Shown here: positions 80 to 26,191 of the stretch, one piece after another
Numbering within the stretch: position 1 is the first letter of the stretch
How the letters are laid out: each line of letters begins with the position of its first letter
From: an uncultured Bacteroidales bacterium
GTDB lineage: Bacteria; Bacteroidota; Bacteroidia; Bacteroidales; FEN-979
Reading direction: 5' to 3'
Assembly (NCBI GenBank): GCA_903828645.1
Contig: CAIKNA010000042.1
Coordinates: 1-39,310 of the forward strand
Length of the DNA stretch: 39,310 nucleotides
Program-made: the position numbers and the translations under genes
Notes under the pieces: model-generated
What the model was told of the DNA's origin: nothing
Database searches by the model: none
The model's input: only the letters and a program-made list of their open reading frames with translations

Positions 80-1438
80 ATGCCGGGTAAAAAACTGCTT
101 TTCGTGTCAGCCAACAGGTATGGAAACCCCTACCCTGTCTACCCCCTTGGGATATCTTACCTTTGTACATACCTGGGCGAACGCCTGCCCGATTACCAAA
201 TCAGGATATTCGATTTCAATCTCAGCACTCCCGAGTCTTTCACCGCGACCCTGCTCGAATTTCAACCGGATTATATCGGACTTTCCCTTAGAAATGTCGA
301 TGATGTCAATTTTTACAGCCAGGAGAGTTTCATCAATGGTTACAAGGCGATTGTCGACATCGTGCGCGAAACCACAAAAGCCCCGCTCATCATCGGGGGT
401 GCTGCCTTTTCCATTTATCCCCGGGAACTTTTTTCATGCTTTCGCCCCGACTATGGCATCCAGGGGGAAGGTGAAGAGAGTTTTTACAATTTTTTGCTCA
501 GCCTGGATGATGGGAAACCCGATCTGACCATTGACGGACTTGTATATTCCGAGGGCACTGAAATACATGTCAACGGGCGTAAGCACTTTATCCTGACCCC
601 CGACCTTGATTTTGATACAGACTTACTGGAATTTTACTGGGATAAGGCAGGCATGGTGAATGTGCAGACTAAACGAGGCTGCCCTTATCAATGCATCTAT
701 TGTACATACCCCCTCATCGAAGGTCATAACGTGCGTACCCTCGATCCGGACAAGATCGTGCATACATTGCGCCAGTTATATGAAAAGCACAAGGTTGATT
801 ATGTCTTCTTTACCGATTCGGTTTTCAACATCAGCAACAATTTCAATATTGAACTTGCAAAAAAACTCATCGCTGCTAATCTTCCAACGCATTGGGGGGC
901 CTATTTTTCCCCGCATAATTTATCCCTGGAAAATTTGAAGTTGTTTGCCAAAGCAGGTCTGACACATATCGAGTTCGGAACTGAATCGCTCTCAGACACA
1001 ACGCTGAATAAATATGGGAAACATTTTAATGTGGATGAAGTGGTACGGGTGTCGGATTATTGCAACCAGGCAGGCGTCTATTTCTGCCATTTCATGATCA
1101 TCGGAGGCTATGGTGAGACAGAAGCCACGATCGATGAAAGTTTTGAAAATTCCAAACGCATTCAAAATACCGTTTTCTTCCCTTTCATCGGCATGCGCAT
1201 TTACCCCGGAACAATCCTGCATAAAATTGCCATTGAACAAGGCATTGTCAGGGTGACCGATAACCTGCTTGAACCGGTTTATTACATTGCTCCGGGCATC
1301 GATTATGGCACGCTTAAGGAACGCGCGGTGAAAACCGGGCGCAGGTGGGTGTTCCCCGATGAAGATGTGGCTACGGTGATGAACCGCATGCGCCAACGCA
1401 AACGCAAAGGATCCTTATGGCATCATCTGAAGAAATAA
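80..1438 (+). CDS. B12-binding domain / radical SAM enzyme
   Basis: This 452-residue protein has a B12-binding-like N-terminal Rossmann region (about 1-150, beginning LLFVSANRYGNPYPVYPLG) followed by a radical SAM barrel. The [4Fe-4S] ligands are C201, C205 and C208 in RGCPYQCIYC. I see no DxHxxG motif, so cobalamin, if bound, would not be in the His-on form. Class B radical SAM proteins of this architecture methylate or rearrange unactivated carbons. Members of this type occur in bacterial lipid-biosynthesis clusters. Its place at the head of a KS/ACP operon suggests that it modifies the acyl chain (inference). Its 3' end overlaps the dehydratase gene by 22 nt, which points to translational coupling. 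The substrate is unknown. Confidence 0.85.
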   Translation: MPGKKLLFVSANRYGNPYPVYPLGISYLCTYLGERLPDYQIRIFDFNLSTPESFTATLLEFQPDYIGLSLRNVDDVNFYSQESFINGYKAIVDIVRETTKAPLIIGGAAFSIYPRELFSCFRPDYGIQGEGEESFYNFLLSLDDGKPDLTIDGLVYSEGTEIHVNGRKHFILTPDLDFDTDLLEFYWDKAGMVNVQTKRGCPYQCIYCTYPLIEGHNVRTLDPDKIVHTLRQLYEKHKVDYVFFTDSVFNISNNFNIELAKKLIAANLPTHWGAYFSPHNLSLENLKLFAKAGLTHIEFGTESLSDTTLNKYGKHFNVDEVVRVSDYCNQAGVYFCHFMIIGGYGETEATIDESFENSKRIQNTVFFPFIGMRIYPGTILHKIAIEQGIVRVTDNLLEPVYYIAPGIDYGTLKERAVKTGRRWVFPDEDVATVMNRMRQRKRKGSLWHHLKK

Positions 1439-1830
1439 ATATCCCGCAAAAACCACCGATGGTGATGGTGGACCGCCTGGTCAAAATCGTTGATAAAACC
1501 ACGGTAACCGCCTTTATGATTCGTGAAGATAACGTTTTTTGTGAAAATGGCGCCTTCAGGGAACCCGGTTTGATCGAGAACATGGCTCAGACTGCCGCCG
1601 CAGGCGTGGGAGCCAAACCCGGTAATTCAGGTGAAAAAGCACCCCTGGGTTTTATCGGTGGCATCAGGAACCTGAAAATTGAGGACTTTCCCAGGGTCGG
1701 TCAGGAGATCATCACCCGGGTAACCGTGTTGCACGAAGTGTTTGACGCTACCATCGTACAAGGCGAAGTGTTTCAGAACGACCGGTTGATCGCAGGATGT
1801 GAATTGAAAATATTCTTAATCAAAGCATGA
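1417..1830 (+). CDS. Hotdog-fold 3-hydroxyacyl-ACP dehydratase-like protein (ApeP-like)
   Basis: This 137-residue single hotdog domain has PPMVMVDRL at the N-terminus and EPGLIENMAQTAAAG on the central helix. The helix matches FabZ/ApeP-type dehydratases and retains their conserved Glu. The FabZ catalytic His of the HFPG motif is absent: the equivalent stretch reads GAFREPG. In aryl-polyene systems an ApeP-like subunit works as a heterodimer with an ApeI-type partner that supplies the other catalytic residue. No such partner lies in this window. The gene starts inside the radical SAM gene, preceded by AAAGG at 1406-1410. Probable role: dehydration of ACP-bound 3-hydroxyacyl intermediates, or a structural partner subunit. 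Confidence 0.75.
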   Translation: MASSEEINIPQKPPMVMVDRLVKIVDKTTVTAFMIREDNVFCENGAFREPGLIENMAQTAAAGVGAKPGNSGEKAPLGFIGGIRNLKIEDFPRVGQEIITRVTVLHEVFDATIVQGEVFQNDRLIAGCELKIFLIKA

Positions 1831-1833
1831 AAC

Positions 1834-2256
1834 ATGGGAAATATATCTGATGAAGTAAAAGATAAATCAACCGGTGATAACGAATTGATCTATAAATATA
1901 ATCGTGAACTTTTTTATCACTTTGACAAGGAGACGGGGTTCACCCAGGAAGTTGATTACCAAAATCCTAACAACCAGGTAATTATCAAACAAAGCTGGGA
2001 TGCCGCAGAACAACGGTTAAATGAAGTAAAACAGCTGGTAATCATTGGAAAGTTAAGTCCCATTGCATATTACATGGAAAAAATATTGATGGAAGTTCCC
2101 ATGCTGGCAGCCTACATGGAAATATCAGGCTGGCGGGTTCGAAGACACCTGAAAAGCAGGGTATTCAAAAAGCTGAATCAGGAGATACTGGCAAGATATG
2201 CCGCCATCTTCGGGATAACTATTGAGCAACTTACGAAGCCTGATTTTCTGGGGTAA
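1834..2256 (+). CDS. Small HTH-like protein, copy A (paired with BtrH-like protein A)
   Basis: I do not recognise a named family for this 140-residue protein. It is clearly homologous to the protein at 3287-3739. Shared blocks are SPxxYYMEK (middle), a WRV pair followed by a basic stretch, and a C-terminal YAxxFxIxxxQL. The C-terminal third reads like an XRE/Cro-type helix-turn-helix, with WRVRRHLK as a possible recognition helix and a closing helix in the style of 'IAxxLgVsxxxL'. A DNA-binding role is inference; it could equally be an adaptor for the BtrH-like enzyme. It begins three bases after the dehydratase stop. The BtrH-like gene follows after 20 nt, and the same order recurs downstream. 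Confidence 0.7.
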   Translation: MGNISDEVKDKSTGDNELIYKYNRELFYHFDKETGFTQEVDYQNPNNQVIIKQSWDAAEQRLNEVKQLVIIGKLSPIAYYMEKILMEVPMLAAYMEISGWRVRRHLKSRVFKKLNQEILARYAAIFGITIEQLTKPDFLG

Positions 2257-2276
2257 ATCTTTTTAAAACAAACGAA

Positions 2277-3278
2277 ATGGTAAAATTGGAATTTGAACAC
2301 CGGCAGGCTGGACATTGTGAAAGCGGTGTGACACGCAACCTGCTGAACTACCATCATCATAAAATCAGCGAACCCATGGCATTCGGGATTGGAGCAGGGC
2401 TGTTTTTCAGCTACCTGCCCTTTCTCAAAATGCAGCATGCTCCTACGACATCGTTCAGGGTTTGGCCCGGACAGGTTTTCGATCGTGCGACCAAAGAACT
2501 TGGCGTGAAGACTTCCATCCACACCTTCCGCAATCCTAAGGAGTCGATGGATAAACTGAATGCAGTACTCGAACAGGGATACCCTGTGGGATTGCAGGTC
2601 GGCACATACCATCTGCCGTTTTTCCCGCCTGAGTACCGGATGCACTACAACATGCACAACATGATTGCTTATGGTCACGACAACGGCAATTATTTTATCA
2701 GTGATACCCTGATGGAAAACCTGGTGGAAATCAACTATGAAGATCTCAAGCGCGTCAGGTTTGCCAAAGGGGCCTTCGCCCCGCAAGGACGGATGTATTA
2801 CCCCACCTATGTTCCCAAAGACATTGACATCAGGCCTGCCATTATCAAAGGTATCCGGAAGACCGCAAACAACATGGTGGGGATTCCCTTTCCGATCATC
2901 GGTGTGAAAGGCATCCGTTACCTTGCAGGCCGCATGCGCAATTGGGAGAAAAAGCTGGGCCCCGAAAAAGCCTCCTACTACCTTGGCCAGGTTTTGCGTA
3001 TGGAAGAAGAAGTCGGTACAGCCGGTGCGGGTTTCAGGTACATTTATGGCGCCTTTCTTGAAGAGGCATCTGGCGTATTGAACCAACCCTGGCTCAGGGA
3101 AATATCCTTTGAAATGGGCGAAAATGCCAATAAATGGAGGGAATTTTCATACCTTGGCTCACGAAACTGCAAGAAAAGGGGAAAACCTGATCAATCGTAT
3201 GATTTTCTGGCAGATATCCTGCTTGAAGTCGCAGACCGCGAAGAGAAGATCTTTAAAAAACTTGCCACCATTAAATAG
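2277..3278 (+). CDS. BtrH-like Cys acyltransferase, copy A (butirosin H N-terminal domain + DUF4872-like)
   Basis: This 333-residue protein has an N-terminal papain-like domain of the BtrH type. The putative nucleophile is C14 in RQAGHCESG, the His is H127 in NMHNMIAYG, and a likely third residue is D143 in ISDT. The C-terminal half (about 170-333) is helical and resembles the DUF4872 region that usually follows. BtrH itself moves an acyl group from an acyl carrier protein onto an amine during butirosin biosynthesis. With an ACP and ketosynthases in the same operon, transfer of the finished acyl chain from ACP to an amine or alcohol acceptor is the most economical guess. The acceptor is not evident. 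It is a paralogue of 3786-4811. Confidence 0.75.
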   Translation: MVKLEFEHRQAGHCESGVTRNLLNYHHHKISEPMAFGIGAGLFFSYLPFLKMQHAPTTSFRVWPGQVFDRATKELGVKTSIHTFRNPKESMDKLNAVLEQGYPVGLQVGTYHLPFFPPEYRMHYNMHNMIAYGHDNGNYFISDTLMENLVEINYEDLKRVRFAKGAFAPQGRMYYPTYVPKDIDIRPAIIKGIRKTANNMVGIPFPIIGVKGIRYLAGRMRNWEKKLGPEKASYYLGQVLRMEEEVGTAGAGFRYIYGAFLEEASGVLNQPWLREISFEMGENANKWREFSYLGSRNCKKRGKPDQSYDFLADILLEVADREEKIFKKLATIK

Positions 3279-3286
3279 TAATAAAA

Positions 3287-3739
3287 ATGGAAGAGAATAG
3301 CAACCCTGTCTACAAAGACAAAGCTTATGGCCAGCACCGCGAGCTCTCCTATTCATACCAGGATGGCGGCAAATTTGAAAGAACCGTGGGTTTTCATGAT
3401 AATACCGACCGTATCGTCCTGCAGCAGGCTTGGGATCTCTTCGATGAACGCATTGAAGATGCACGGCAGCGCGTTGCAGCCGGGAAAGTGAGCCCGGTCG
3501 TATACTACATGGAAAAAAACCTGCTCGACCCATTGAACCTGTCGATGATGGCAGGAATATCACTGTGGAGGGTCAAATGGCATTTTAAACCTGCCGTTTT
3601 TGACCGCCTGAAGGATAAAACATTGCAGAAGTATGCAAAAGCATTTAACATTCCCGTTGACCAACTGAAAAATAAAAATATCACGAAGGTACACGAAGGA
3701 GGCACGAAAGACAACGAAGGAAAACAATCGATTTCGTGA
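3287..3739 (+). CDS. Small HTH-like protein, copy B (C-terminus extended by a repeat)
   Basis: This 150-residue paralogue of 1834-2256 shares SPVVYYMEK, WRV and YAKAFNIPVDQL. Homology to copy A ends around residue 133. The final 16 or so residues (KVHEGGTKDNEGKQSIS region) are encoded by an intergenic-type CACGAAG inverted repeat, which appears to have replaced the original stop. The gene lies 8 nt after BtrH-like A and 46 nt before BtrH-like B, so it is the first gene of the second copy of the duplicated module. The function is unknown. The HTH-like C-terminal half suggests DNA binding or protein docking (inference). Confidence 0.7.
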   Translation: MEENSNPVYKDKAYGQHRELSYSYQDGGKFERTVGFHDNTDRIVLQQAWDLFDERIEDARQRVAAGKVSPVVYYMEKNLLDPLNLSMMAGISLWRVKWHFKPAVFDRLKDKTLQKYAKAFNIPVDQLKNKNITKVHEGGTKDNEGKQSIS

Positions 3740-3769
3740 TGCCCCGGGCCCCCTTCGTGCTTCTTCGTG
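3682..3769. repeat. Imperfect inverted repeat built from CACGAAG units
   Basis: The left arm (3682-3719) carries cacgaagg, cacgaagg, cacgaaa and acgaagg. The right arm (3733-3769) carries the reverse complements, ending ccttcgtg-cttcttcgtg, around a GC-rich centre (gccccgggcccc). Outer pairing is 3682-3688 with 3763-3769, and 3692-3699 with 3752-3759. RNA from this stretch could fold into a long hairpin between the two genes of module B. The left arm is translated as the tail of the small HTH-like protein. It looks like a mobile or dispersed intergenic repeat rather than a terminator, since no T-run follows. Confidence 0.65.
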
Positions 3770-3785
3770 AAAATATTAAAAGTAC

Positions 3786-4811
3786 ATGGAAACAACCAAA
3801 ACAATCATCAACTATACGCACCGCCAGGCAGGTCATTGTGAAAGCGGGGCCACCTCGAACCTTTTCAAATTCAACGGGCTTGAAATATCGGAACCCATGG
3901 CCTTTGGTGTTGGGAATGGTCTCTATTTCAGTTATATTCCTTTCCTGAAGATACAATTTGCCCCCATGCTTTCCTTCAGAAATCTTCCGAACACTGTTTT
4001 CAAGCGGTCCACAGCATACATGGGTGTAGATGCCACGGTGATCAAAAAGATCAAAGATCCCGTGGAAGCCATGGAGAGGCTCGACCGCAACCTCGAAAAG
4101 GGCATCCCCACGGGTTGCCAGGTAGGCGTATTCCAGCTGACTTTCTTCCCTCCCGAATACCGTATGCACTACAACATGCACAACCTCGTGGTTTTCGGCA
4201 AGGAGGGTAATCTGTATCATGTAAGCGACACCGTGATGGAGTTCCCCCAGGTAATCACTTACGACGACTTGTTGCGCGTCCGCTATGCCAAAGGCGCTTT
4301 TGCACCCCAGGGAAAAATGTACTGGATCAATCACACCATCGACCAACCGGTTGATCTTAAAGCGGCCGTCATCCTTGGGATTAAAAAGACCGTTCATGAA
4401 ATGATCGGCATTCCTTTCCCGCTTATCGGGGTAAAGGGATTGCGCTGGCTGGCCCGTGACATCAAAAAATGGCCCATAAAGCATGGAAATGACAAGGCTT
4501 CCTTTTACCTGGGACAGATTTTGCGCATGGCTGAAGATTTCGGTACCGGCGGGGCAGGCTTCCGTTACATCTATGGCGCATTTCTTAAGGAAGCCGGGGA
4601 GTTATTCAACCACCATGCGGAATTGCTTGAAGCTTCGGATATGATGGGCAAGACAGCCAATAAATGGCGTGAATTCACCTATATGGGAGCACGGAATTGC
4701 AAAAACCGCTCAAAACCTGAGGAGGATTACGGCACATTATCTGTAAAACTGCTCGAGATCGCAGCAGATGAAGAAAAGGTTTATCAGAAACTAAAAAAAA
4801 TCAACTTTTAA
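3786..4811 (+). CDS. BtrH-like Cys acyltransferase, copy B
   Basis: This 341-residue paralogue of 2277-3278 conserves the RQAGHCESG block (C18), the MHYNMHN block (H132), SDT (D148), the KGAFAPQG(R/K)MY segment and the C-terminal GTxGAGFRYIYGAFL block. All putative catalytic residues are intact in both copies, so neither looks like a pseudogene. The copies differ most between residues 55 and 110 and in the tail, which would allow different acceptors or acyl chains (inference). The stop overlaps the ABC ATPase start by one base (TAATG), implying tight co-translation. This links the acyl-transfer product to export. Confidence 0.75.
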   Translation: METTKTIINYTHRQAGHCESGATSNLFKFNGLEISEPMAFGVGNGLYFSYIPFLKIQFAPMLSFRNLPNTVFKRSTAYMGVDATVIKKIKDPVEAMERLDRNLEKGIPTGCQVGVFQLTFFPPEYRMHYNMHNLVVFGKEGNLYHVSDTVMEFPQVITYDDLLRVRYAKGAFAPQGKMYWINHTIDQPVDLKAAVILGIKKTVHEMIGIPFPLIGVKGLRWLARDIKKWPIKHGNDKASFYLGQILRMAEDFGTGGAGFRYIYGAFLKEAGELFNHHAELLEASDMMGKTANKWREFTYMGARNCKNRSKPEEDYGTLSVKLLEIAADEEKVYQKLKKINF

Positions 4812-5563
4812 TGTCCCCGAAACCCATCATTGAAATCAGGGAACTGACAAAGATCTACAAGGGAGCCGATGAACCGGCTGTTAATTCGATTTCACTGGAT
4901 ATATTCCCGAATGAGATATTCGGATTGCTGGGACCTAACGGGGCGGGTAAAACCACTACCATCTCCATTTTATGCGGATTGTTCCCGGCAACCAAAGGCA
5001 GTGTCGTCATCGACGGCATCGACAGCCACGTCAACCTTGAACAGATCAAGCAGATCATCGGGGTGGTTCCCCAGGATATAGCCCTCTATCCCACACTCAC
5101 CGGGCGTGAGAACCTTACCTTCTTCGGAAACATGTACGGCCTTTACGGATCGGAACTTAACAACAAGATCAACCATTATCTCGGCGAATTCGGTCTGGAA
5201 AAACATGCCGGGAAAATGGTGGGCAAATATTCCGGGGGGATGAAACGCCGCGTAAACCTGATCGCCGGGTTGCTGCACGATCCGAAAATCCTCTTCCTCG
5301 ATGAACCCACAGTGGGTATCGATGTTCAATCGCGGGTGGTGATTCTCGAATATCTCAAGGAGATCAATAAAAAGGGCGTAACGATCATATATACCTCGCA
5401 CCATATGGAAGAAGCTGAAAGTCTTTGCACCAGGGTTGCGATCATCGACAGGGGAAAGATCATTGCACTTGGACAACCGAAAGAGCTACTGGCACGGAAT
5501 CCTGAATTTAGCAACCTCGAAAACATCTTCATCCATCTCACCGGGAAAGGCATGAGGGACTGA
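4811..5563 (+). CDS. ABC transporter ATP-binding protein
   Basis: This 250-residue nucleotide-binding domain has a Walker A (GPNGAGKTTT, 41-50), signature SGGMK (141-145), Walker B ILFLDEP with D164/E165, and switch H197 in TSHH. The sequence is of the DRA/CcmA exporter type that pairs with ABC-2 permeases, and the partner permease follows two bases after the stop. The pair most likely energises export of the product made by the surrounding enzymes across the inner membrane. The direction of transport is inferred from the ABC-2 family. Confidence 0.92.
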   Translation: MSPKPIIEIRELTKIYKGADEPAVNSISLDIFPNEIFGLLGPNGAGKTTTISILCGLFPATKGSVVIDGIDSHVNLEQIKQIIGVVPQDIALYPTLTGRENLTFFGNMYGLYGSELNNKINHYLGEFGLEKHAGKMVGKYSGGMKRRVNLIAGLLHDPKILFLDEPTVGIDVQSRVVILEYLKEINKKGVTIIYTSHHMEEAESLCTRVAIIDRGKIIALGQPKELLARNPEFSNLENIFIHLTGKGMRD

Positions 5564-5565: not shown

Positions 5566-6867
5566 ATGAGAAAATATCTATCCGTCTGCCGCAAAGAGCT
5601 GCTGCTGCTCATCCGTGATAAAGCGGGATTGGCCATGCTTTTCATCATGCCGGCTGTGCTGATCCTCATATCCTCGATGATGCAGGAATTCGCATGGGGT
5701 TCGCTTGCCAAGGATCCCAGTGTACAGGTTCTTTTTGTCGACAACGACCACGACAGCCTTGGGATGCAGATTAAAAACGGTTTCAAAGGTTCTGAATCAT
5801 TTGAGGTCATCGACAACCTGGACCACAAACCCCTGACAGCCAATAGTGCAAAAAACGCCGTCAGGAAAGGGGATTATCTCATCGCGATCGTGGTTCCCAA
5901 AGGTGCGACCAGCACCATGCGGGCCAACGTCCGCCTTACCGTTGCAAAAACCCTTGCAGGCTTTGGTATTGGCAACCCCATGGTACTGAATGGAATCGTA
6001 TTCAGGGATTCTGTCAACGTGACTATCTATTTCGATCCGACAGTTAAAAAAGCCTTTAAAAATGCGGTGATCAGTTCTGTGAGGGAGAATTATTACAGGA
6101 TCCAGACCGCATGGGTGTTTAAAAATTTCAACCAGGAAATCGCCCTGCAAATGCCGATGTACAAACCACCCAAAGAGAATTTCAAAGAAATACTCAGGTT
6201 CAGTGAGGAATTTCCATCCTACCGCGAAGTCGAGCTGATTCCAAATTCAACGCAGCACAATGTTCCGGCATGGACCATCTTCGCGATGTTTTTCATCGTA
6301 ATCCCGCTGACCCAGAGCCTCATCCAGGAACGCGAAGGCGGAAGCCTTTACAGGCTGCTCACCATGCCGGTTTCATACATGACCCTTGTCATGGGGAAAG
6401 TGGGCGTGTACCTCGTGGTATGCCTTGTGCAAACCGCGGCCATGCTTCTTGCCGGGATCATGATCCTTCCCCTGTTCGGGCTTCCCATGCTTATGCTGGG
6501 GGATGATATTGCTGCCTTATTCCTGATGACACTGGTTGTATCCATGGCAGCTGTCGGATATGGACTTATGATAGGAACCATAGCCAAGACTCACCAGCAG
6601 GCAGCAGCCTTCGGATCCATTTCGGTCATCATCCTGGCTGCAATGGGTGGTTTGTGGGTGCCAATCTACCTCATGCCGGCATCCATGCGTGCCATCTCCA
6701 TGCTCAGCCCGCTGAATTGGGCAATCACCGGATATTACAGCATTTTCCTGCGGGGTGGAAACCTGTGGCTCATTGCTCCCCAGATCTTAAAATTGTTCAC
6801 TTTCTTCCTTTTTTCTGTGACAATCACAGCGATATATCACAAATTTAAAAGTCCCTTGAACAACTAA
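5566..6867 (+). CDS. ABC-2 type permease with large extracytoplasmic domain
   Basis: This 433-residue membrane protein has one N-terminal TM helix (about 18-38) after the RKELLLLIRDK-type amphipathic start. A periplasmic domain of about 190 residues follows (40-230). Five more TM helices lie at about 235-253, 275-305, 315-340, 348-370 and 405-428. The conserved SLIQEREGGSL loop after TM2 is typical of ABC-2 exporters of the YhhJ/DrrB type. With the preceding ATPase it would form a 2+2 exporter. The thioesterase gene begins three bases downstream, so it belongs to the same transcript. Confidence 0.9.
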   Translation: MRKYLSVCRKELLLLIRDKAGLAMLFIMPAVLILISSMMQEFAWGSLAKDPSVQVLFVDNDHDSLGMQIKNGFKGSESFEVIDNLDHKPLTANSAKNAVRKGDYLIAIVVPKGATSTMRANVRLTVAKTLAGFGIGNPMVLNGIVFRDSVNVTIYFDPTVKKAFKNAVISSVRENYYRIQTAWVFKNFNQEIALQMPMYKPPKENFKEILRFSEEFPSYREVELIPNSTQHNVPAWTIFAMFFIVIPLTQSLIQEREGGSLYRLLTMPVSYMTLVMGKVGVYLVVCLVQTAAMLLAGIMILPLFGLPMLMLGDDIAALFLMTLVVSMAAVGYGLMIGTIAKTHQQAAAFGSISVIILAAMGGLWVPIYLMPASMRAISMLSPLNWAITGYYSIFLRGGNLWLIAPQILKLFTFFLFSVTITAIYHKFKSPLNN

Positions 6868-6869
6868 CC

Positions 6870-7283
6870 ATGAAACTGACCGACCGCAAAGAAATTATTG
6901 TCAGGTTTTCAGAGGTTGACTCCATGCGCATCGTATGGCATGGCAACTACCTCAAATATTTTGAAGATGGCAGGGAATCCTTCGGGCTCAAGTACAACCT
7001 CGGATACCTGGATGTTTACAGGCACCATGTCATGATCCCCCTGGTAAAAATAAACTGCGACTACAAGCGGCCGTTGGAATATGGCGACACAGCCATCGTA
7101 GAGACCCGGTTTGTTCCAGCCGAAGCTGCCAAAATCGTTTTTGAATATACCATTTACCGTAAGAAAGACCTTGAAGTTGCCGCTACAGGTACATCCATCC
7201 AGGTTTTCCTTACCCCGGAAGGGGAATTATTGCTTACAGCCCCCGAATTTTTCACCGAATGGAAAAAGAAATGGGGCGTTTAA
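6870..7283 (+). CDS. 4HBT/YbgC-type acyl thioesterase (hotdog fold)
   Basis: This 137-residue protein has the 4-hydroxybenzoyl-CoA thioesterase signature near its start: an acidic residue in SEVDSMRIVWHGNYLKYFEDGR, with VD, H and NY in the usual order. The canonical 'DxxGxVyHxNY' glycine is replaced (DSMRIVWHGNY), but the Asp and His-x-Asn-Tyr remain. Such enzymes hydrolyse acyl-CoA or acyl-ACP thioesters. In flexirubin and aryl-polyene operons a similar gene is common and is thought to edit or release chains. It is followed by KS1; an upstream in-frame ATG of KS1 lies inside this gene but is not favoured. Confidence 0.85.
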   Translation: MKLTDRKEIIVRFSEVDSMRIVWHGNYLKYFEDGRESFGLKYNLGYLDVYRHHVMIPLVKINCDYKRPLEYGDTAIVETRFVPAEAAKIVFEYTIYRKKDLEVAATGTSIQVFLTPEGELLLTAPEFFTEWKKKWGV

Positions 7284-7294
7284 CATTGGATGCC

Positions 7295-8467
7295 ATGAAA
7301 CCTGTTTATATCCTGAGCGACAACATCATAACATCGCTTGGATTTTCAACTGCAGAAAACACAGCTGCCCTGGACCGGGGAACCATCGGGATCAAAACCA
7401 TCAACGAGCAGGATCTCTATCCCGGCCCTGTTCAGCTTTCACTTATTGATACAGTGCGGTTGACAGAGAAATTTTCTGAAGCGCTGGCAATCCATCAAAA
7501 AACCCTCCCGGCAGGTTCATTTACACGCCTGGAGAAAATGTTTATCGTATCCATTCATGATGCATTGAAAACAGGGCTGGTACAACCTGAAAATCCCAGG
7601 ACCCTGCTGGTGATATCTACAACGAAAGGCAACATCGACTTGCTGGAGAATCGTTACAAGGCGGTGTTCAGCCACAAACGGCTTTATTTGTGGGAACTGG
7701 GAAGGATTATTCAAAATTTTTTCGGGTTTGCAGAAACACCGCTGATTATTTCAAATGCCTGCATCTCAGGGGTGGTCGCCATCATGACGGCAACCAGATT
7801 TTTGCAGGCAGGTTTATATGACCAGGCAGTTGTAACAGGCGGAGACATAGCTTCTGAGTTCGTTATCTCCGGTTTTCAATCTTTCCAGGCAATCAGCCCA
7901 AACCCATGCAAACCATTCGACCTGAACCGAACCGGGCTTTCCCTCGGCGAAGGTTGCGGAACGATGGTGCTTTCAACCACCCGGGAAATGGAGGAAACTT
8001 CATCCATCCGGGTAGCCGGGGGTGCAACCAGCAATGATGCCAACCATATTTCAGGTCCTTCACGTACAGGCGAAGAACTGGGCGCTGTCATCAACCAAAC
8101 CTTCAGGCAGGCAGGATTAACACCACTGGATATCAGCTATATTTCGGCTCATGGAACCGCCACGCCATTCAATGATGAAATGGAATCAAAGGCCATTGAA
8201 TTCAGCGGTCTTTCGCATGTTCCGGTTAACAGCTTCAAGGGGTACTGGGGCCATACTCTTGGAGCAGCCGGGCTGGTCGAATCGGTAGCGGCCATCTCTT
8301 CACTCAGGACCAATCTCCTTTACCGGTCTGCCGGGTTTGAAACACCCGGGGTTTCAGGAACAATGAACGTGATCAACGTAAACCAACCTGTCAGGCTTAC
8401 ATCCTGCCTTAAAACCGCATCCGGCTTTGGCGGATGCAATGCCGCCATCCTTTATCAGAAAGTGTAA
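7295..8467 (+). CDS. Beta-ketoacyl-ACP synthase KS1 (FabF/FabB family, intact)
   Basis: This 390-residue condensing enzyme carries the complete catalytic triad: C156 in ISNACISG, a His in SAHGTATPFND, and a His in KGYWGHTLGAAG. I prefer the ATG at 7295 (MKPVYILSDN), because ketosynthases begin almost directly with the 'VYITGxGxxS' strand and this leaves an 11-nt gap after the thioesterase. An in-frame ATG at 7259 would add 12 residues of no family character. It is followed one base later by the half-length KS-like gene, and the two may form the first of three KS/partner pairs. Predicted reaction: decarboxylative condensation of malonyl-ACP with an acyl-ACP. Confidence 0.87.
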   Translation: MKPVYILSDNIITSLGFSTAENTAALDRGTIGIKTINEQDLYPGPVQLSLIDTVRLTEKFSEALAIHQKTLPAGSFTRLEKMFIVSIHDALKTGLVQPENPRTLLVISTTKGNIDLLENRYKAVFSHKRLYLWELGRIIQNFFGFAETPLIISNACISGVVAIMTATRFLQAGLYDQAVVTGGDIASEFVISGFQSFQAISPNPCKPFDLNRTGLSLGEGCGTMVLSTTREMEETSSIRVAGGATSNDANHISGPSRTGEELGAVINQTFRQAGLTPLDISYISAHGTATPFNDEMESKAIEFSGLSHVPVNSFKGYWGHTLGAAGLVESVAAISSLRTNLLYRSAGFETPGVSGTMNVINVNQPVRLTSCLKTASGFGGCNAAILYQKV

Positions 8468-9127: not shown

Positions 9128-9382
9128 ATGGATGAACTGATTTTAAAATTAAAAAAAGAAGTCATAGAGCAATTAAACCTGGAAGATACTTCACCGGATG
9201 ATATCGATCCCGATTCCGCTTTGTTTGGTGAGGGCCTCGGACTGGATTCTATAGATGCACTGGAATTGATTGTTTTACTGGAAAAGAACTACGGAATCAA
9301 AATCGAAGATCCGAAGGATGGCAAGAAAATTTTCTTCTCCATCCGGACCATGGCCGAATACATCACGGAGCACAAAAAATAA
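9128..9382 (+). CDS. Acyl carrier protein
   Basis: This 84-residue acidic helical protein has the phosphopantetheine attachment motif GLDSIDALEL, with Ser41 as the modified residue. The segment FGEGLGLDSID and the closing MAEYI helix are typical of type II ACPs in polyene and lipid clusters. It lies 8 nt after the half-KS gene and 6 nt before KS2, so it is central to the operon. It should hold the growing chain for the ketosynthases, the hotdog dehydratase and the BtrH-like acyltransferases. No phosphopantetheinyl transferase is seen in the window. Confidence 0.93.
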   Translation: MDELILKLKKEVIEQLNLEDTSPDDIDPDSALFGEGLGLDSIDALELIVLLEKNYGIKIEDPKDGKKIFFSIRTMAEYITEHKK

Positions 9383-9388: not shown

Positions 9389-10705
9389 ATGCCCCAGCGG
9401 ATTTTTATCACCGGTTACGGCATCATCAATTGCATCGGCAACAATGTTGCAGAAAATTTAACCTCCCTGTTACAGTCAAAACCTGGAACAGGAAGGATTT
9501 GCCATATAGATACACTACTCAAAGATGAATTGCTTGTCGGGGAAGTCTCCAAAACACAGGAGGAACTTTTTGGCATGGCAGGAATCACCCCTGCCGAAGG
9601 CTATTCCAGGAACGCACTGCTGGGTATCATTGCCGCCCGGGAAGCTTTTTCACATGGCAGGATGGATGAAAACCGGGAGCTGAAAACAGGGCTTATCTCT
9701 GCCACTACCGTCGGCGGAATGGATCGCTGTGAACTGTTTTACAACGATTTTCTTAGCAACAACACGCGAAATGCTTACATCGATTCATACGATTGTGCCG
9801 ATAGTACAGAAAAAATTGCACAGTTGCTTGGGATTTACGATTTTGTCACTACAATCAGCACCGCATGTTCTTCAGCAGCCAATGCCATCATGCTCGGAGC
9901 TCGGATGATTCGCACCGGCCGGCTCGACCGCGTACTGGCAGGAGGTTGTGAATCCCTGACAAAATTTCACCTCAATGGCTTTAATGCCCTTAAAATCCTT
10001 GACAAAGACCCATGCAAACCCTTTGACCGGGATCGTGCAGGCATCAATCTGGGTGAAGGGGCTGCATACCTGGTGCTTGAATCAGGCGAAAGCCTTAAGA
10101 AAACAGGTAATCAGCCCATGTGCGAACTGGTTGGCTGGGGCAATGCCTGCGAGGCATTTCACCAAACGGCCTCTTCCCCCGACGGGGTTGGTGCCTATGC
10201 GGCAATGAAAAAAGCCATTGACCTGTGCGGGCTCGAGCCAGCAGCTATAGACTATGTGAATGCCCACGGCACAGGAACCGATAACAACGACCTTTCGGAA
10301 GGTCGGGCGGTAGAAAGGCTTTTCGGAAAGCAGATGCCCATGGTGAGTTCAACCAAACCTTTTACCGGACATACGACCAGCGCGGCCGGTTCCATAGAAG
10401 CCATTTTGTCAATCCTGTGCCTTCAGAACCAGTTTATCCTGCCAAACCTGAATTTTAAAGAACGCATCGACGAACTCAACTTCTCCCCTGTCGAAAAACT
10501 GGTAACAAACGTACCGGTTAATGTAGTCATGTCGAATTCATTTGGGTTTGGTGGGAATGATACTTCATTGATCTTTAAAAAAGTCAATGCAGACAATTCA
10601 GGCAATGCAAACAATGCTGACAATGATGACAATGCTGACAGTGCAGACATTGCTGACAATTCAGAGAATGCGGAAAATACAAACTTTGCAGCAAATGAAG
10701 AATAG
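9389..10705 (+). CDS. Beta-ketoacyl-ACP synthase KS2, with repeat-encoded Asn/Asp/Ala tail
   Basis: This 438-residue KAS II-type enzyme has C160 in TISTACSSA, a His in NAHGTGTDNND and a His in FTGHTTSAAG. It is strongly similar along its length to KS3 (12057-13289), with shared ATTVGGMDR, FVTTISTACSS, LTKF-LNGFN and LGEGAA blocks. Homology ends near FGGNDTSLIFKK. The last 39 or so residues are a low-complexity N/A/D tail (NAD-type triplets) encoded by a 9-nt tandem array. That tail has no family counterpart and is probably a repeat expansion through the old stop. With the Cys-less protein at 10927-11985 it should form a KS/CLF-like pair. Confidence 0.9.
   Translation: MPQRIFITGYGIINCIGNNVAENLTSLLQSKPGTGRICHIDTLLKDELLVGEVSKTQEELFGMAGITPAEGYSRNALLGIIAAREAFSHGRMDENRELKTGLISATTVGGMDRCELFYNDFLSNNTRNAYIDSYDCADSTEKIAQLLGIYDFVTTISTACSSAANAIMLGARMIRTGRLDRVLAGGCESLTKFHLNGFNALKILDKDPCKPFDRDRAGINLGEGAAYLVLESGESLKKTGNQPMCELVGWGNACEAFHQTASSPDGVGAYAAMKKAIDLCGLEPAAIDYVNAHGTGTDNNDLSEGRAVERLFGKQMPMVSSTKPFTGHTTSAAGSIEAILSILCLQNQFILPNLNFKERIDELNFSPVEKLVTNVPVNVVMSNSFGFGGNDTSLIFKKVNADNSGNANNADNDDNADSADIADNSENAENTNFAANEE
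10583..10664 (+). repeat. 9-nt tandem array A inside the 3' end of KS2
   Basis: Degenerate units of the form aatgctgac (also aatgcaaac, aatgatgac, agtgcagac, attgctgac) repeat with a 9-base period. They are in frame, so they encode Asn-Ala-Asp triplets. The same unit in reverse complement makes up array B at 10846-10926, so the two arrays form an inverted pair around the KS2/CLF1 intergenic stretch. Confidence 0.8.
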
Positions 10706-10926: not shown

Positions 10927-11985
10927 ATGGGCTACATCAATGGCATCGGCTTAATTTCACCTCAAAAGACTGCTGAAACGAAAGAATTCCTGTCGGAGGT
11001 TACCGAGTATACCTCTGATTACCTGAAATGTATCGAACCAGTTTACAGGAGTTACATCGACCCAATGCAGTCGCGCCGGATGAGCAGGATGATGAAAATG
11101 GGGATCGCATCAGCCAGGATGAGCCTTGCTGATGCTGATTGCCGGATGCCCGATGCCATCATCACCGGAACGGGGCTAGGAAGCGTGGAGGATACGGAAA
11201 AAATACTTGGAGAACTCACCAAGGATGAACGGTTCCTCAACCCGACCCCATTTATCCAGTCCACATACAACACTATCAGTTCCCAGGTGGCCATTCAACT
11301 GAAATGTCATAACTATAATTCAACCTATGTGCACCGTACCTTCTCTTTTGAAAGCGGGCTGATCGACGGGCTGATGCAGATTGATGAACAAACAGCTATG
11401 AACGTTCTGGCCGGCGCCATCGATGAAATGAGCCTGAACCACCTCGGGATTACTCGCCGCGTGGGGCAATGGAAGATGGAGCCCGTGAACAACCTCTCCT
11501 TGCTTGAAACCAGGACCCCTGGTGCGCTTGCAGGCGAAGGTGCAGCATTCTTCGTAATAGGTTCTGAAAAGCAGGAATCGACTTACGCCGAATTGAAAGA
11601 TGTCGCCACCTGTATTAACTTTAACAACTCATTCCGGCCCGGTTCGTTTCTACCTGGGTTTCTTGGCAAACACGGACTTTCGGACAATGATATTGACCTG
11701 GTGATTCTCGGGCTGAATGGTGATTGTAAATACGATCCCGTCTACATGGAGTTTGCAGACCGGTATTTTCCGGGCAAAGCCAGGGGATGGTACAAACACC
11801 TATGCGGCGAATACCATACTGCCACCGGGTTCGGACTTTATGTTGCTGCTAATATCCTGAAGAACCAGGTTTATCCCGATATACTGAAGTTAAAGCCAAC
11901 CAACCCTAAGCGGTTAAAAAACATACTGATATACAATCATTTCAGGAATGTGAATCACTCTTTTATCCTGGTACAGGGCTGCTGA
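10927..11985 (+). CDS. Ketosynthase-like chain-length-factor-type protein CLF1
   Basis: This 352-residue protein has the thiolase/ketosynthase fold: MGYINGIGLISPQ start, RRMSRMMKMG helix, ITGTGLGSVEDTEK, and a C-terminal HLCGEYHTATGFG. It lacks the nucleophile. The motif position reads YVHRTFSFESG instead of TACSS, and the HGTGT His motif is replaced by LGLNGD. Loss of Cys while the fold is kept is the hallmark of chain-length factors in type II PKS and of ApeC-like subunits. It is paralogous to 13286-14434. It lies directly after KS2, though separated from it by the repeat-rich 221-nt gap. Probable role: heterodimer partner that sets chain length. Confidence 0.8.
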   Translation: MGYINGIGLISPQKTAETKEFLSEVTEYTSDYLKCIEPVYRSYIDPMQSRRMSRMMKMGIASARMSLADADCRMPDAIITGTGLGSVEDTEKILGELTKDERFLNPTPFIQSTYNTISSQVAIQLKCHNYNSTYVHRTFSFESGLIDGLMQIDEQTAMNVLAGAIDEMSLNHLGITRRVGQWKMEPVNNLSLLETRTPGALAGEGAAFFVIGSEKQESTYAELKDVATCINFNNSFRPGSFLPGFLGKHGLSDNDIDLVILGLNGDCKYDPVYMEFADRYFPGKARGWYKHLCGEYHTATGFGLYVAANILKNQVYPDILKLKPTNPKRLKNILIYNHFRNVNHSFILVQGC

Positions 11986-12025
11986 AAACTCCAAAAGATA
12001 TTTCATCCCCCATAAAATTTTCTGC

Positions 12026-12033
12026 TAATTTTG
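12026..12033 (+). promoter_or_regulatory. Possible internal Bacteroidetes -7 element (TAATTTTG)
   Basis: TAATTTTG matches the TAnnTTTG consensus exactly and lies 24 nt before the KS3 start, in one of the few gaps (71 nt) of the operon. No clear TTG -33 element is found at the expected distance, so this is weak support for an internal promoter that would drive the KS3/CLF2 part separately. Confidence 0.4.
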
Positions 12034-12056
12034 CACCCTAAATTATCAGGTAAATA

Positions 12057-13289
12057 ATGTCAAAACGGGTCTATGTAACCGGGATGGGAATCATCTGTGC
12101 CATTGGAAATAGTGTCGAAGAGACACTGAATTCATTGCTTTCGGAAAAATCGGGAATAGGAGAAATCACCCTTTTTGAAACCATCCACCGGGGAGTCATC
12201 CCGATAGCCGAAGCAAAACTGACCACAAAAGCGTTGCTTGAAAAAGCTGGCAAGGCTGGCAAAAAAAACTTTACGCGCACCGCTTTGCTTGGAATGACAG
12301 CAGCAAAGGAAGCGCTTACAGCAGCGGGAATTCATGACATAAAACAATACAGAACCGGGCTCATCTCCGCCACAACTGTGGGCGGCATGGACCGGAGCGA
12401 GGATTTTTACGCTTCCTTTTTAGCGGATCCAAAGAAGGGCCGAATGATCGACGTTGTGAACCACGATTGCGGAGACAGCACAGAAAGGATCGCAACCCAT
12501 CTCGGGATCAGCAATTTTGTCACCACGATCAGCACTGCATGCTCTTCATCAGTGAATGCCATTATGTTTGGATCAAACCTCATCAAAACCGGGCAGCTGG
12601 ACCGGGTGGTGGTTGGTGGTGCGGATTCGGTGACCAAATTCACCCTCAACGGTTTCAACACCCTCATGATCCTCGATAAAACAGGATGCCATCCCTTTGA
12701 TGAAAACCGGGCAGGGCTAACGCTTGGCGAAGGAGCTGCTTTCCTGGTGCTTGAATCGGAAGAAATTGTGTTAAAAGAAGGCAAAAGTATCCTTGCAGAG
12801 GTTTCAGGTTATGGCAACGCCAACGATGCCTATCATCAAACGGCCTCCTCCCCCGAAGGGACAGGCGCTTTCATGGCCATGTCGAAGGCCATTGCCATGA
12901 GCGGACTTCAGCCAGGAGACATTGACTACATTAACGTTCATGGCACAGGCACCCTAAACAACGACCTTTCCGAAGGTGTTGCCATGGAGCGGCTTTTCGG
13001 AGAGAATGTGCCACACTTCAGTTCCACCAAAGGCTATACGGGGCATACACTGGGAGCCGCCGGTGCCGTTGAAGCAGTAATTTCAATTCTTACGCTTAAG
13101 CACAGGGTGATTTTTCCAAATCTGAATTTTTCAACCCCGATGAAGGAATTGCGCATCAGCCCTGTGACTGTTATTGAGGCGCAAAGTATTGCTTCTCTGA
13201 AAATTCACCATGTTTTATCCAATTCATTCGGTTTTGGCGGGAATAATTCAGCAATCGTTTTGTCGCACCCTATGACCAATACTCCATGA
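12057..13289 (+). CDS. Beta-ketoacyl-ACP synthase KS3 (intact)
   Basis: This 410-residue KAS II-type enzyme has C162 in STACSSS, a His in NVHGTGTLNND and a His in YTGHTLGAAG. It is a close paralogue of KS2 but ends cleanly after FGFGGNNSAIVLS with a short tail and no repeat extension. The ATGA overlap with CLF2 (4 nt) shows translational coupling, as is usual for obligate KS/CLF heterodimers. Predicted reaction: malonyl-ACP-dependent chain extension. The duplication KS2/CLF1 to KS3/CLF2 suggests either two successive elongation stages or two chain lengths (inference). Confidence 0.9.
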   Translation: MSKRVYVTGMGIICAIGNSVEETLNSLLSEKSGIGEITLFETIHRGVIPIAEAKLTTKALLEKAGKAGKKNFTRTALLGMTAAKEALTAAGIHDIKQYRTGLISATTVGGMDRSEDFYASFLADPKKGRMIDVVNHDCGDSTERIATHLGISNFVTTISTACSSSVNAIMFGSNLIKTGQLDRVVVGGADSVTKFTLNGFNTLMILDKTGCHPFDENRAGLTLGEGAAFLVLESEEIVLKEGKSILAEVSGYGNANDAYHQTASSPEGTGAFMAMSKAIAMSGLQPGDIDYINVHGTGTLNNDLSEGVAMERLFGENVPHFSSTKGYTGHTLGAAGAVEAVISILTLKHRVIFPNLNFSTPMKELRISPVTVIEAQSIASLKIHHVLSNSFGFGGNNSAIVLSHPMTNTP

Positions 13290-14434
13290 ACAACGTATAC
13301 CTCAACGGCCTGGGCAATGTGTCGCCACAGAAAACGATAAGGGGCATTTCCACGAATGGGAATGGCGTTGCGACACTCCTGGATGAACCGATTTTCTTCG
13401 AAACGAATCAGTTTAAGTGCCCTGACCCGGGTTATAAGGATTTCATACCTGGTGATATGATCCGCAGGATGGGGCGTATCATTAAAATGGGAGTTACCGC
13501 ATCAAAATTGTGCCTCAGAGATGCTGCAACCGGTCGCAATGCTGACTCCGTGCAGGAGATCATTCCTGATGCCATCATCACGGGTACCGGCCTGGGTTGC
13601 ATGGAAGATACCGAGAAATTTCTCACCTCCATGATCAGGAACAACGAAGAGTTCCTCACACCTACTTCATTTATACAAAGTACCCACAACACTGTCGCAG
13701 GGCAAATCGCACTCCTGCTCAAATGCCATGGGTATAATTTCACCTATGTTCACCGCGGAATTTCCTTTGAAAGTGCCCTGACAGATGCCATGATCCAGTT
13801 GCAACTTGGTGAATTCTCCAACGCACTGGTCGGGGGATCCGATGAACTCACCGCCAATTCATTTGCCATCACCTCCCGCCTGGGATACTGGAAGCAAAAG
13901 CCCGTTCACCCGATGAACCTGCTTGATGATCCTCAACGTGGGACCATTGCAGGAGAAGGCGCCTCTTTTTTCTTTCTTGAAAATCAAAAGAATCAACAAA
14001 CTTATGCCGGGCTTGCCGGGGTCGCCACCTTTTTGAAACCTTCATCCTCCTTGGAGGTAAGCGAACGGCTTCAAACTTTCCTGGCAAGCCATGGACTGAC
14101 AATTGCGGATATCAGTCTTGTAGTTCTTGGACTGAGTGGAGATCCGCGAACGGACCAGGTATACCATGCCCTTGTAAAATCTGATTTTCAGAATTCACCA
14201 CTTGCATTTTTCAAACATCTCTGCGGAGAATACCATACCGCTACGGCCTTTGCAACCTGGCTTGCAGCCATGATGATAAAAACACAATCGGTTCCGGAGG
14301 TAGTGAGGGTTAAAGGTTTACACGGTCAGATTATGCCCGGAAAGAACAGACAGGATGCGACTATTGAATATGTACTCATCTACAACCATTACCGGGAAAA
14401 CAACCACGCATTCATCCTGTTAAGCCGGCCATAA
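13286..14434 (+). CDS. Ketosynthase-like chain-length-factor-type protein CLF2
   Basis: This 382-residue paralogue of CLF1 has GMIRRMGRIIKMG-like and ITGTGLGCMEDTEKF blocks, a Cys-less motif (YVHRGISFESA) in place of TACSS, and a conserved KHLCGEYHTATAF near the C-terminus. It is coupled to KS3 through an ATGA overlap. Both CLF-like proteins share the FIQSTxNT(I/V)xxQ(V/I)A helix that packs at ketosynthase dimer interfaces. It is about 30 residues longer than CLF1, mainly in the N-terminal loop and near residues 70-80. A condensing role on its own is unlikely. Confidence 0.8.
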   Translation: MNNVYLNGLGNVSPQKTIRGISTNGNGVATLLDEPIFFETNQFKCPDPGYKDFIPGDMIRRMGRIIKMGVTASKLCLRDAATGRNADSVQEIIPDAIITGTGLGCMEDTEKFLTSMIRNNEEFLTPTSFIQSTHNTVAGQIALLLKCHGYNFTYVHRGISFESALTDAMIQLQLGEFSNALVGGSDELTANSFAITSRLGYWKQKPVHPMNLLDDPQRGTIAGEGASFFFLENQKNQQTYAGLAGVATFLKPSSSLEVSERLQTFLASHGLTIADISLVVLGLSGDPRTDQVYHALVKSDFQNSPLAFFKHLCGEYHTATAFATWLAAMMIKTQSVPEVVRVKGLHGQIMPGKNRQDATIEYVLIYNHYRENNHAFILLSRP

Positions 14435-15238
14435 ATGTTAACATTCAGACGCTTCACCATGATTATCCTCATTCTGCTGGTGAGCCTGAACCTGTGGAGT
14501 TTTGTATCCAAAAAGTCTACTGATGGATTTATTCACGACCATGTCACGCTGTTTTGCGGATTACTGCTCACAGTTTATTGCGGAATCTCACTTGCCATGG
14601 CCTTTCTGCCTTGCACCAATTTTCATCACCCGGTAATTTGCCATGGAACACCTGATGGAAAATCAGTCGCCCTAACCTTTGATGATGGCCCTGATCCCAT
14701 CAAAACACCGTTAATCCTTGAGGTTCTCAGGAAGCATGATGTCAGTGCAACTTTTTTTCTCATCGGAAAAAACCTGGCAGGCAATGAATTGCTCGTGAAA
14801 CGGTTGGTTGACGATGGACACCTGGCAGGCAACCACTCATTTTCACATTCCGGGTGGTTCGATCTTTTTTCTGCCGGCAGAATGAGGTCGGAAATGATGG
14901 AGACTGACCGCCTTGTCAACCAGATCACAGGAAAATCCCCGCTTTTTTTCCGTCCTCCGTTTGGCGTGGTCAATCCGATGGTAAGCAAGGCTCTTAAGAA
15001 CATGCACTGGCATGCCATTTGCTGGAACATCCGTTCCCTCGATACGATAGACAGGGATGCGCAAAAGACAAGTCATAAAATTCTGAGGCAGCTGCAGCCC
15101 GGGGCAATCATCCTGCTTCACGATCATACCCTGTTTACCCAACATCATCTGGATGATCTTATATCATCCATAAAAGCAAAAGGATACGGAATCGTCCCGT
15201 TAGATAAACTGTTGAATATACCAGCCTATGCCTTGTAA
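14435..15238 (+). CDS. NodB-type polysaccharide deacetylase family protein, membrane-anchored
   Basis: This 267-residue protein has two hydrophobic segments (about 9-24 and 38-58) and then a NodB homology domain. Motif 1 is LTFDDGPDP (D83/D84), motif 2 is HSFSH (H134, H138), motif 3 is RPPFG, and motif 5 is LLHDHT. These are the metal-binding and catalytic elements of carbohydrate esterase family 4, which removes N- or O-acetyl groups. The start abuts the CLF2 stop directly, and its 3' end overlaps the LolA-like gene by 11 nt, so it belongs to the operon. It may deacetylate a sugar head group of the product (inference). Confidence 0.88.
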   Translation: MLTFRRFTMIILILLVSLNLWSFVSKKSTDGFIHDHVTLFCGLLLTVYCGISLAMAFLPCTNFHHPVICHGTPDGKSVALTFDDGPDPIKTPLILEVLRKHDVSATFFLIGKNLAGNELLVKRLVDDGHLAGNHSFSHSGWFDLFSAGRMRSEMMETDRLVNQITGKSPLFFRPPFGVVNPMVSKALKNMHWHAICWNIRSLDTIDRDAQKTSHKILRQLQPGAIILLHDHTLFTQHHLDDLISSIKAKGYGIVPLDKLLNIPAYAL

Positions 15239-17362: not shown

Positions 17363-17395
17363 TTTGATTAAAAGTACACAATTTGAGAATTTTTG
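17363..17395 (+). promoter_or_regulatory. Possible promoter for the PNGase-like gene
   Basis: TTTG at 17363-17366 and AATTTTTG at 17388-17395, separated by 21 nt, approximate the Bacteroidetes TTTG / TAnnTTTG pair with one mismatch in the -7 box. This would give a leader of about 140 nt before the ATG at 17541. Support is modest. Confidence 0.35.
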
Positions 17396-17540
17396 CAGAA
17401 AATATTATTTCATGGCCAGCGTTCCGGCGAAAGCAACTCGATCCTTTTCCACTTCTATTCGAAGAGAAGGGAATTTTTTTTCATTGAGGAGAGGCCAGAT
17501 GAGGTACTTAATGTTTTTACGTACTTTTATAGAAAAAAAA

Positions 17541-26151: not shown

Positions 26152-26191
26152 ATTGAAACTTTGAAAATGGAAAGGCACTCAAAATTAATGT

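Follow-up and report, generated by a model that had tools for sequence, protein, structure and literature searches.

The systems closest to the locus described here are the flexirubin and dialkylresorcinol pigment clusters, for which NCBIfam 20.0 names two protein families, DarG_fam and the 'BtrH-related acyltransferase DarH'. In the arcuflavin cluster of Azoarcus sp. BH72, reported in 2014, Table 1 places darD, a conserved hypothetical gene, beside darE, a BtrH-like peptidase, and gives no function for them (PMC3949708). Among the BtrH-type proteins, BtrH is described as an acyl carrier protein (ACP):aminoglycoside acyltransferase (PMC10318531), CcbD as a Cys-His-Glu enzyme that takes a carrier-protein-bound acyl group onto its Cys in a ping-pong reaction (PMC12945683), and AziU3/U2 as forming an aziridine, which is not acyl transfer (PMC12559475). 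In the literature found, the enzyme joining the two halves of flexirubin has only been proposed (FlxW, PMC3992019), and functions for DarG and DarH appear as annotation only. The stretch analysed here (the window) is the whole 39,310-nucleotide contig C42 (CAIKNA010000042.1) of an uncultured Bacteroidales bacterium, whose genome is assembled in 409 contigs (GCA_903828645.1). At 1834-4811 of the + strand it carries two successive darG-darH pairs in the order A-B-A'-B'.

We read this arrangement as a tandem duplication of the darG-darH module in a flexirubin-type aryl-polyene pigment cluster, in which DarH would form an ester, DarG would be its subunit and the acceptor would be something other than a dialkylresorcinol. 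For this explanation as a whole we estimate a probability of about 0.6. What is new is that the DarGH pair has multiplied in a bacterial family without detectable darA or darB.

The duplicated darG-darH module

The module is formed by four intact open reading frames. DarG copy 1 (A, 1834..2256, 140 aa) and DarG copy 2 (A', 3287..3739, 150 aa) match the DarG_fam model NF053536 with 101.8 and 117.7 bits (cut-off 70). DarH copy 1 (B, 2277..3278, 333 aa) and DarH copy 2 (B', 3786..4811, 341 aa) match the DarH equivalog model NF053550 with 418 and 390 bits (cut-off 300). The BtrH_N and DUF4872 domains of DarH (PF14399 and PF16169) are both above cut-off, and copy 1 contains the candidate residues Cys14, His127 and Asp143, the first of which aligns with Cys18 of copy 2. 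The two small proteins are identical in 41 of 114 aligned residues (36%, E 1e-28) and the two large ones in 183 of 332 (55%, E 1e-137). The first-pass annotation had taken the four genes for two copies of one pair, and the alignments bear it out; the motifs it had listed are present in A and A' (SPxxYYMEK, WRV and YAxxFxIxxxQL) and in B and B' (HRQAGHCESG, MHYNMHN and AGFRYIYGAFL). The genome has a third darG-darH pair, on contig C397, with an ACP-like gene behind it. Its DarH also passes NF053550 (323 bits), and its DarG stays under the cut-off of NF053536 (46.7 bits).

The pairing was followed with DarG_fam and BtrH_N in 148 genomes of the phylum and in 120 genomes comprising the source genome and 119 relatives, the source genome being in both sets and counted once. 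DarG_fam was identified in 9 genomes of the first set and 49 of the second, and in 0 of 14 control genomes, where BtrH_N appeared once, under cut-off. A BtrH_N match lies 41-299 nt downstream on the same strand of 113 of the 121 DarG matches. The other eight are five matches at or near contig ends (G150, G152, G235 and two in G186) and three true separations (G148, G165 and G162), in which DarG1 and DarH1 are apart and the partner is retained elsewhere in the genome, on a different contig in G162. An insert of further pigment-type genes, 8.5 kb long in G148 (L034, G148:C180) and 11.7 kb in G165 (L035, G165:C86) and lying mostly on the opposite strand, stands between the two genes; by eye its genes are LolA-, LolB-, exporter- and CrtI-like, with ketosynthase- and ACP-like genes also in G165. 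Conversely, 13 of 126 BtrH_N matches have no adjacent DarG: some are the counterparts of DarG genes that are separated or at contig ends, others are weak or partial matches, and the rest are a second DarH in G228 and a 79-bit BtrH_N protein in a different gene context in G203 (L211). In G228 the order is DarG-DarH-DarH, the second DarH standing behind a single DarG (G228:C113, L038, 6649-9595). A DarGH pair in G216 (G216:C36, L037, 8465-9872) lies amid genes apparently unrelated to pigment, FlxA being on another contig there.

A DarH profile scan of named genomes confirmed at least 563 places, and all figures for named loci refer to 80 loci listed among these. They are mostly from Bacteroidota, with others labelled Desulfobacterales, Desulfobacteraceae, Desulfuromonadaceae, Deltaproteobacteria and Pseudomonadota. 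DarG is directly upstream of DarH in 75 of the 80, 69 of them recognized by script and six by hand on account of overlapping stop-to-stop frames (L150, L156, L169, L181, L185 and L202). Five are left: L126, which is the G148 contig with the insertion, L130 and L136, which are contig starts, and L142 and L145, where no DarG was seen although upstream DNA is present. In L145 (uncultured Flavobacteriales, 5995-6993) the catalytic Cys of the lone DarH is replaced by Ser (IHSENG); in this single case loss of the partner may have gone along with loss of the active site. The 106 pairs extracted comprise 43 whose genes overlap or abut, 52 with gaps of up to 50 nt, 9 with gaps of up to 300 nt and the 2 with insertions.

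The pairing is thus real and near constant, and it is already catalogued. The small protein had been proposed as an obligate partner in a pairing not known to be described. The first part stands as a near-constant genetic partnership, and a wide occurrence of the small protein without BtrH-like neighbours was not found across the genomes searched; strict adjacency is not obligatory, as the three separated genomes and the two loci without DarG indicate. The supposed novelty of the pairing does not hold, given that NCBIfam models exist for both families and that Table 1 of PMC3949708 lists such a pair. Among the open-licence literature matches listed, that paper is the one in which a description of the pair was found.

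The history of the pair was traced in trees of 102 of the 106 pairs, short fragments being excluded and the DarH tree being built by a quick method. The DarG and DarH trees are congruent and share the same main clades: a third-locus clade of 36 rows, a copy-1 clade of 16 and a copy-2 clade of 34, to which a clade of three rows is sister. In the 18 genomes that have both tandem pairs in the set, the DarG and DarH distances correlate at 0.93, against 0.14 on random partner swaps (500 trials, standard deviation 0.09, maximum 0.55). The darG-darH pairs have therefore duplicated and diverged jointly, so that the pairing survived duplication as first supposed; linked genes share a history anyway, and contact is not thereby shown.

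The family of the window comprises 43 genomes (G000 and G148-G189), mostly fragmented assemblies, and tandem pairs lie on one contig in 19 of them, two with an insertion inside pair 1. The main duplications are older than the genera of this family. Chance similarity or an assembly artefact is excluded by the tandems on single contigs and by the divergence of the copies, and a recent duplication by copies 1 and 2 forming separate clades that span genera, alike in both trees. In G168 and G173 (first pair) and in G166 (second pair) a tandem copy falls in a third clade beside copy 2, so tandem arrangements have either formed repeatedly or involved exchange.

Predicted roles of DarH and DarG

DarH is a probable papain-fold acyltransferase of the BtrH family, as predicted from the AlphaFold2 model of copy 1 (predicted local distance difference test, pLDDT, 93.3; predicted template modelling score 0.90). 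The nearest solved structures are AziU3, CtaG and CcbD (Foldseek E 2e-10 to 1.6e-6; VIA Z 20.8-24.2, root-mean-square deviation 3.5-4.7 over 291-307 residues), AziU3 being the best Foldseek match (E 2e-10; VIA Z 23.4). The PDB titles of CtaG name the variants C11A, H128A and D144N, whose spacing agrees with C14, H127 and D143 of DarH. In 104 DarH and 104 DarG rows aligned from the genomes searched, Cys14 and His127 are present in all DarH, and at position 143 there are 101 D and 3 E; both large copies of the window had been noted as intact at their Cys/His/Asp candidates. R288, K299 and R301 of DarH are likewise conserved (104, 103 and 103 of 104). It is a guess, by analogy with arginines described for CcbD (PMC12945683), that these residues might dock the carrier protein. 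The idea that DarG substitutes for a lost basic docking helix of DarH was rejected, since such conserved basic residues argue against the need for one.

The small protein had been called 'HTH-like' and its predicted fold, of the XRE-type helix-turn-helix (HTH), agrees with that name. It is found at residues 63-136 of the AlphaFold2 model of DarG copy 2 (pLDDT 83.5), for which Foldseek returned SinR, P22 c2, DdrO and 434 Cro, with probability 1.00 for most listed rows, a top E of 1.8e-3 and none under E 0.001. VIA gave Z of about 7-8.8; a Z of 8 is little above common arrangements for small helical domains, yet most rows share one superfamily. HppE and HEPD, enzymes bearing such an HTH domain, are among these structural matches. 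Sequence searches were nearly silent: no Pfam HTH model matched A or A' at E up to 1, the third-copy DarG matched only HTH_5 (E 0.19) and HTH_3 (E 0.2), and among PDB sequences profile A3 found no relative at E up to 10 and profile A1 two designed repeat proteins (no stretch passing alone) and one weak match. Residues 63-136 are basic, with +6 and +8 in the two window copies, and the ACP of the cluster has a charge of -9. The recognition-like helix is also basic (WRVKRH), and its His99 is kept in 103 of 104 sequences, several diverged clades included.

From its position in the operon, the close or overlapping frames and the history shared with DarH, DarG is most likely a dedicated DarH subunit. 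Alternatively DarG could regulate the pigment operon as a DNA-binding XRE protein and merely travel along with darH, a weaker reading that we consider unlikely. It would account for the resemblance to SinR, P22 c2, DdrO and 434 Cro and for the basic helix, but a stand-alone DarG was not found, the eight non-adjacent matches being contig ends or rearrangements; the gene sits inside the operon, overlapping or abutting darH in 43 of 106 pairs; the fold also occurs in the enzymes HppE and HEPD; and His99 is conserved to a degree that would be unusual for operator-reading helices of diverged regulators.

With DarG as subunit, the following sequence of events is proposed. Cys14 of DarH would be loaded from acyl-ACP with a finished acyl chain, most likely an aryl-polyene acid; His127 and Asp143 would activate the hydroxyl of an alcohol or phenol acceptor for attack on the thioester, with release of the ester; and the ABC transporter and LolA/LolB-type proteins would, by analogy, carry the ester to the outer membrane. 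DarG would be an XRE-type HTH-fold protein turned dedicated subunit of DarH rather than a regulator that binds DNA. Each of the three pairs, the tandem ones and the third, would probably serve a different donor or acceptor.

The tandem pairs could instead compose one hetero-oligomer of DarH and DarH', one catalytic and the other structural, like a ketosynthase and its chain-length factor, which we find quite doubtful. Tandem pairs on one contig in 19 of 43 genomes would suit it, as would CcbD, whose substrate-binding residues are described as coming from the adjacent monomer (PMC12945683). Against it, Cys and His are intact in 104 of 104 DarH, in both copies, and in several family genomes, although these are draft assemblies, pair 2 is the sole one seen apart from the third pair. 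Chain-length factors differ from the DarH copies in not keeping catalytic residues.

That DarH is a hydrolase (a thioesterase or proofreading enzyme) or carries out some transformation other than ester formation appears improbable. The papain/C39 fold would allow it, as would the structural neighbour AziU3/U2, described as an aziridine synthase (PMC12559475), but the cluster already has a separate 4HBT thioesterase, and for the characterised relatives CcbD and BtrH the activity described is transfer of an acyl group from a carrier (PMC12945683, PMC10318531).

A family without detectable DarA or full-strength DarB

DarG was identified in 42 of the 43 genomes of the family. DarA, an aromatase, and DarB make the dialkylresorcinol half of flexirubin. 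A DarA-like protein, searched with a single query, was found in 0 of the 43, and full-strength DarB also in 0, none exceeding 103 bits against a cut-off of 550; the best DarB match of the source genome has 48.5 bits. Among the controls the DarB model matches in 9 of 14, none above cut-off. DarA-like and DarB (528-598 bits, two above cut-off and two just under) occur in the same four of the 120 genomes, G235, G242, G243 and G263, all of the same order as the window but outside its family. It is unlikely that assembly gaps account for genes missing from all 43. FlxA, the tyrosine ammonia-lyase that provides the starter for flexirubin, is above its cut-off of 700 in 37 of the 43 by row count, the source genome included (contig C130, 829.6 bits). 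On C130 FlxA stands in line with reductase, ketosynthase and acyltransferase genes resembling those ahead of the radical S-adenosylmethionine (SAM) gene in G160.

The usual arrangement is represented by the flexirubin-type genome G057 (L042), with the order FlxA ... acyltransferase, DarA-like, DarB (694 bits), two dehydratase-like genes, darG, darH and ABC genes. Of the named loci, both DarA-like and DarB-like genes occur in 55 of 80. In 54 of the 55 the order is DarA-DarB-darG-darH, Chitinophaga pinensis and Flavobacterium johnsoniae being among them; 53 of these show no other marked gene and one has FlxA ahead. DarB-like alone was identified in 5, and in 13 none of these genes is present in the DNA examined, which is short for several. 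The last 7 (L127, L128, L132, L133, L138, L139 and L143) have a radical SAM gene like that of the window and neither DarA-like nor DarB-like, and the radical SAM gene was found together with DarA or DarB in 0 of the 80. Markers were counted on both strands; the minus strand adds the DarA- and DarB-like genes of L155 and alters none of the seven radical SAM loci. In the window this gene (80..1438, +) encodes a B12-binding radical SAM protein matching TIGR04072 'rSAM_ladder_B12' with 417 bits (cut-off 360), and by cluster comparison it occupies the place of darA-darB in flexirubin-type clusters.

In G172 a region of about 38 kb lies between pair 3 and pair 2. It contains a distantly DarB-like ketosynthase at 23% identity (84 bits), two crotonases, a hydroxyacyl-CoA dehydrogenase, a FabD/MdcH-type acyltransferase, FabF and an ACP-like gene; of its three radical SAM proteins one (L045:4175-5596) is near TIGR04072 with 305 bits, under its cut-off. 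Contig C121 of the source genome has a stretch matching this region. Proteins like TIGR04072, a family named after ladderane-type lipids, are thus seen in aryl-polyene clusters both in the window and in L045. A second pathway of the G172 type may make the acceptor.

DarGH is accordingly not confined to dialkylresorcinol synthesis, and the polyene acid is probably esterified onto another acceptor. With neither a DarA-like gene nor a full-strength DarB seen in the family, that acceptor is probably not a dialkylresorcinol. That DarGH acts in building the dialkylresorcinol ring is suggested by the title of the NCBIfam subfamily, 'dialkylresorcinol biosynthesis protein', and by the gene order of the 54 loci, but is most improbable with DarG in 42 of 43 family genomes and DarA-like or full-strength DarB in none.

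Several points weigh against esterification onto such an acceptor with DarG as a subunit. FlxA does not mark DarGH clusters cleanly: 1 of 14 controls exceeds its cut-off, as do 10 other relatives, of which five lack a DarG match (G190, G192, G209, G210 and G223), and 6 of the 43 family genomes stay below it. By row count 38 of the 43 have a distant DarB-like ketosynthase (45-103 bits, cut-off 550), which may make a different ring or chain acceptor. The DarA query was one protein, called DarA solely from its place beside a full-strength DarB, as in the Azoarcus table, and named by no NCBIfam or Pfam model; it found relatives at 38-46% identity in the same bacterial order. The authors of the Chitinophaga study proposed another enzyme, the ligase-like FlxW, for the ester bond (PMC3992019), and the fold alone does not fix the reaction of DarH, its neighbour AziU3/U2 making an aziridine (PMC12559475). 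Finally, with its HTH fold and basic recognition-like helix DarG may bind DNA.

A family that keeps and multiplies DarGH without apparent darA or darB is a natural experiment separating two functions: it argues that DarGH takes no part in making the resorcinol ring, in which case it may form the ester. A pigment or lipid class not yet characterised is a further implication, and DarG may be an HTH protein that has turned into an enzyme subunit. The boldest version is that this family of uncultured Bacteroidales-type bacteria makes a new class of aryl-polyene esters, with a flexirubin-type polyene half, a non-dialkylresorcinol acceptor from a neighbouring radical-SAM-rich pathway (which has the distant DarB-like ketosynthase, two crotonases and a hydroxyacyl-CoA dehydrogenase), up to three DarG-DarH pairs joining them and DarG as an HTH domain become obligatory subunit of a carrier-protein-dependent acyltransferase; this is tentative and we would give it somewhat less than an even chance.

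The surrounding cluster and comparison with known systems

The remaining genes of the cluster are all on the + strand. Upstream of the module is a FabZ-like dehydratase (1417..1830; NF000582, E 6.8e-7, far under cut-off). Downstream are an ABC transporter ATPase (4811..5563, PF00005), an ABC-2 permease (5566..6867, PF12698), the 4HBT thioesterase (6870..7283, PF13279, with TIGR00051 above cut-off), a beta-ketoacyl synthase (7259..8467, PF02801), the ACP (9128..9382; NF006617, 86 bits, cut-off 70; net charge -9 by count), a second beta-ketoacyl synthase (9389..10705, PF00109 and PF02801) and, by profile searches, three more beta-ketoacyl synthase or synthase-like genes (10927..14434). They are followed by a polysaccharide-deacetylase-like protein (14435..15238, PF01522) and by LolA2 (15228..15947; NF053544, 211 bits, cut-off 125) and LolB2 (15919..16629; NF053540, 89 bits, cut-off 60), both of flexirubin type. 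The flexirubin-type pigment setting follows from LolA2/LolB2 and the ketosynthase, ACP and thioesterase genes of the window together with FlxA in the genome. A toxin-antitoxin or peptidase reading was set aside because cluster context and family models indicate pigment synthesis. Beyond the cluster, the translation of 17364-20990 is a large secreted-looking protein, with a C-terminus that we take to resemble type IX secretion sorting domains. At 23692-38270 there is a run of long histidine-kinase-like frames, apparently tandem paralogues, with N- and C-terminal stretches in common as read from the translations.

Compared with the solved BtrH-type proteins, DarH shares the whole-length fold (with CcbD and CtaG; with BtrH by the Pfam domain) and the Cys-His-Asp/Glu triad of BtrH, CcbD/LmbD and CtaG, and differs in sequence, identity being 11-17%. 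The roles of BtrH and CtaG are in part general background here, and we know of no DarG-like partner for BtrH, CcbD/LmbD or CtaG, though no search aimed at one was made. CcbD differs also in its product, described as an amide (PMC12945683). The AziU2-AziU3 pair of azinomycin is similar in that the BtrH-fold AziU3 was solved in complex with a second protein and different in its aziridine-forming chemistry (PMC12559475); AziU2 was not among the 50 Foldseek and VIA matches listed for DarG, and no direct AziU2-DarG comparison was made. Ladderane-type FASII clusters, described in Kuenenia and Desulfotalea, have radical SAM genes and many FabF paralogues (PMC2649909), as does the locus; the link through TIGR04072 comes from the name of the model alone and no ladderane is claimed.

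The Azoarcus darD-darE genes are likewise a conserved hypothetical and a BtrH-like gene followed by an ABC ATPase, darD being likened to DarG by position and description only. That cluster differs in having one pair, together with darA and darB, and the letters darG and darH designate other genes there (PMC3949708). The most similar systems are the flexirubin and dialkylresorcinol clusters (NF053536, NF053545, NF053550), with both families, the darG-darH order, ABC and ketosynthase/ACP neighbours, FlxA in the genome and LolA2/LolB2. The window DarG proteins are under the cut-off of 170 of the narrower flexirubin_DarG equivalog NF053545 (109 and 113.9 bits), and the source genome differs from these clusters by a radical SAM gene in place of the DarA-like gene and full-strength DarB (not found) and by up to three darG-darH pairs.

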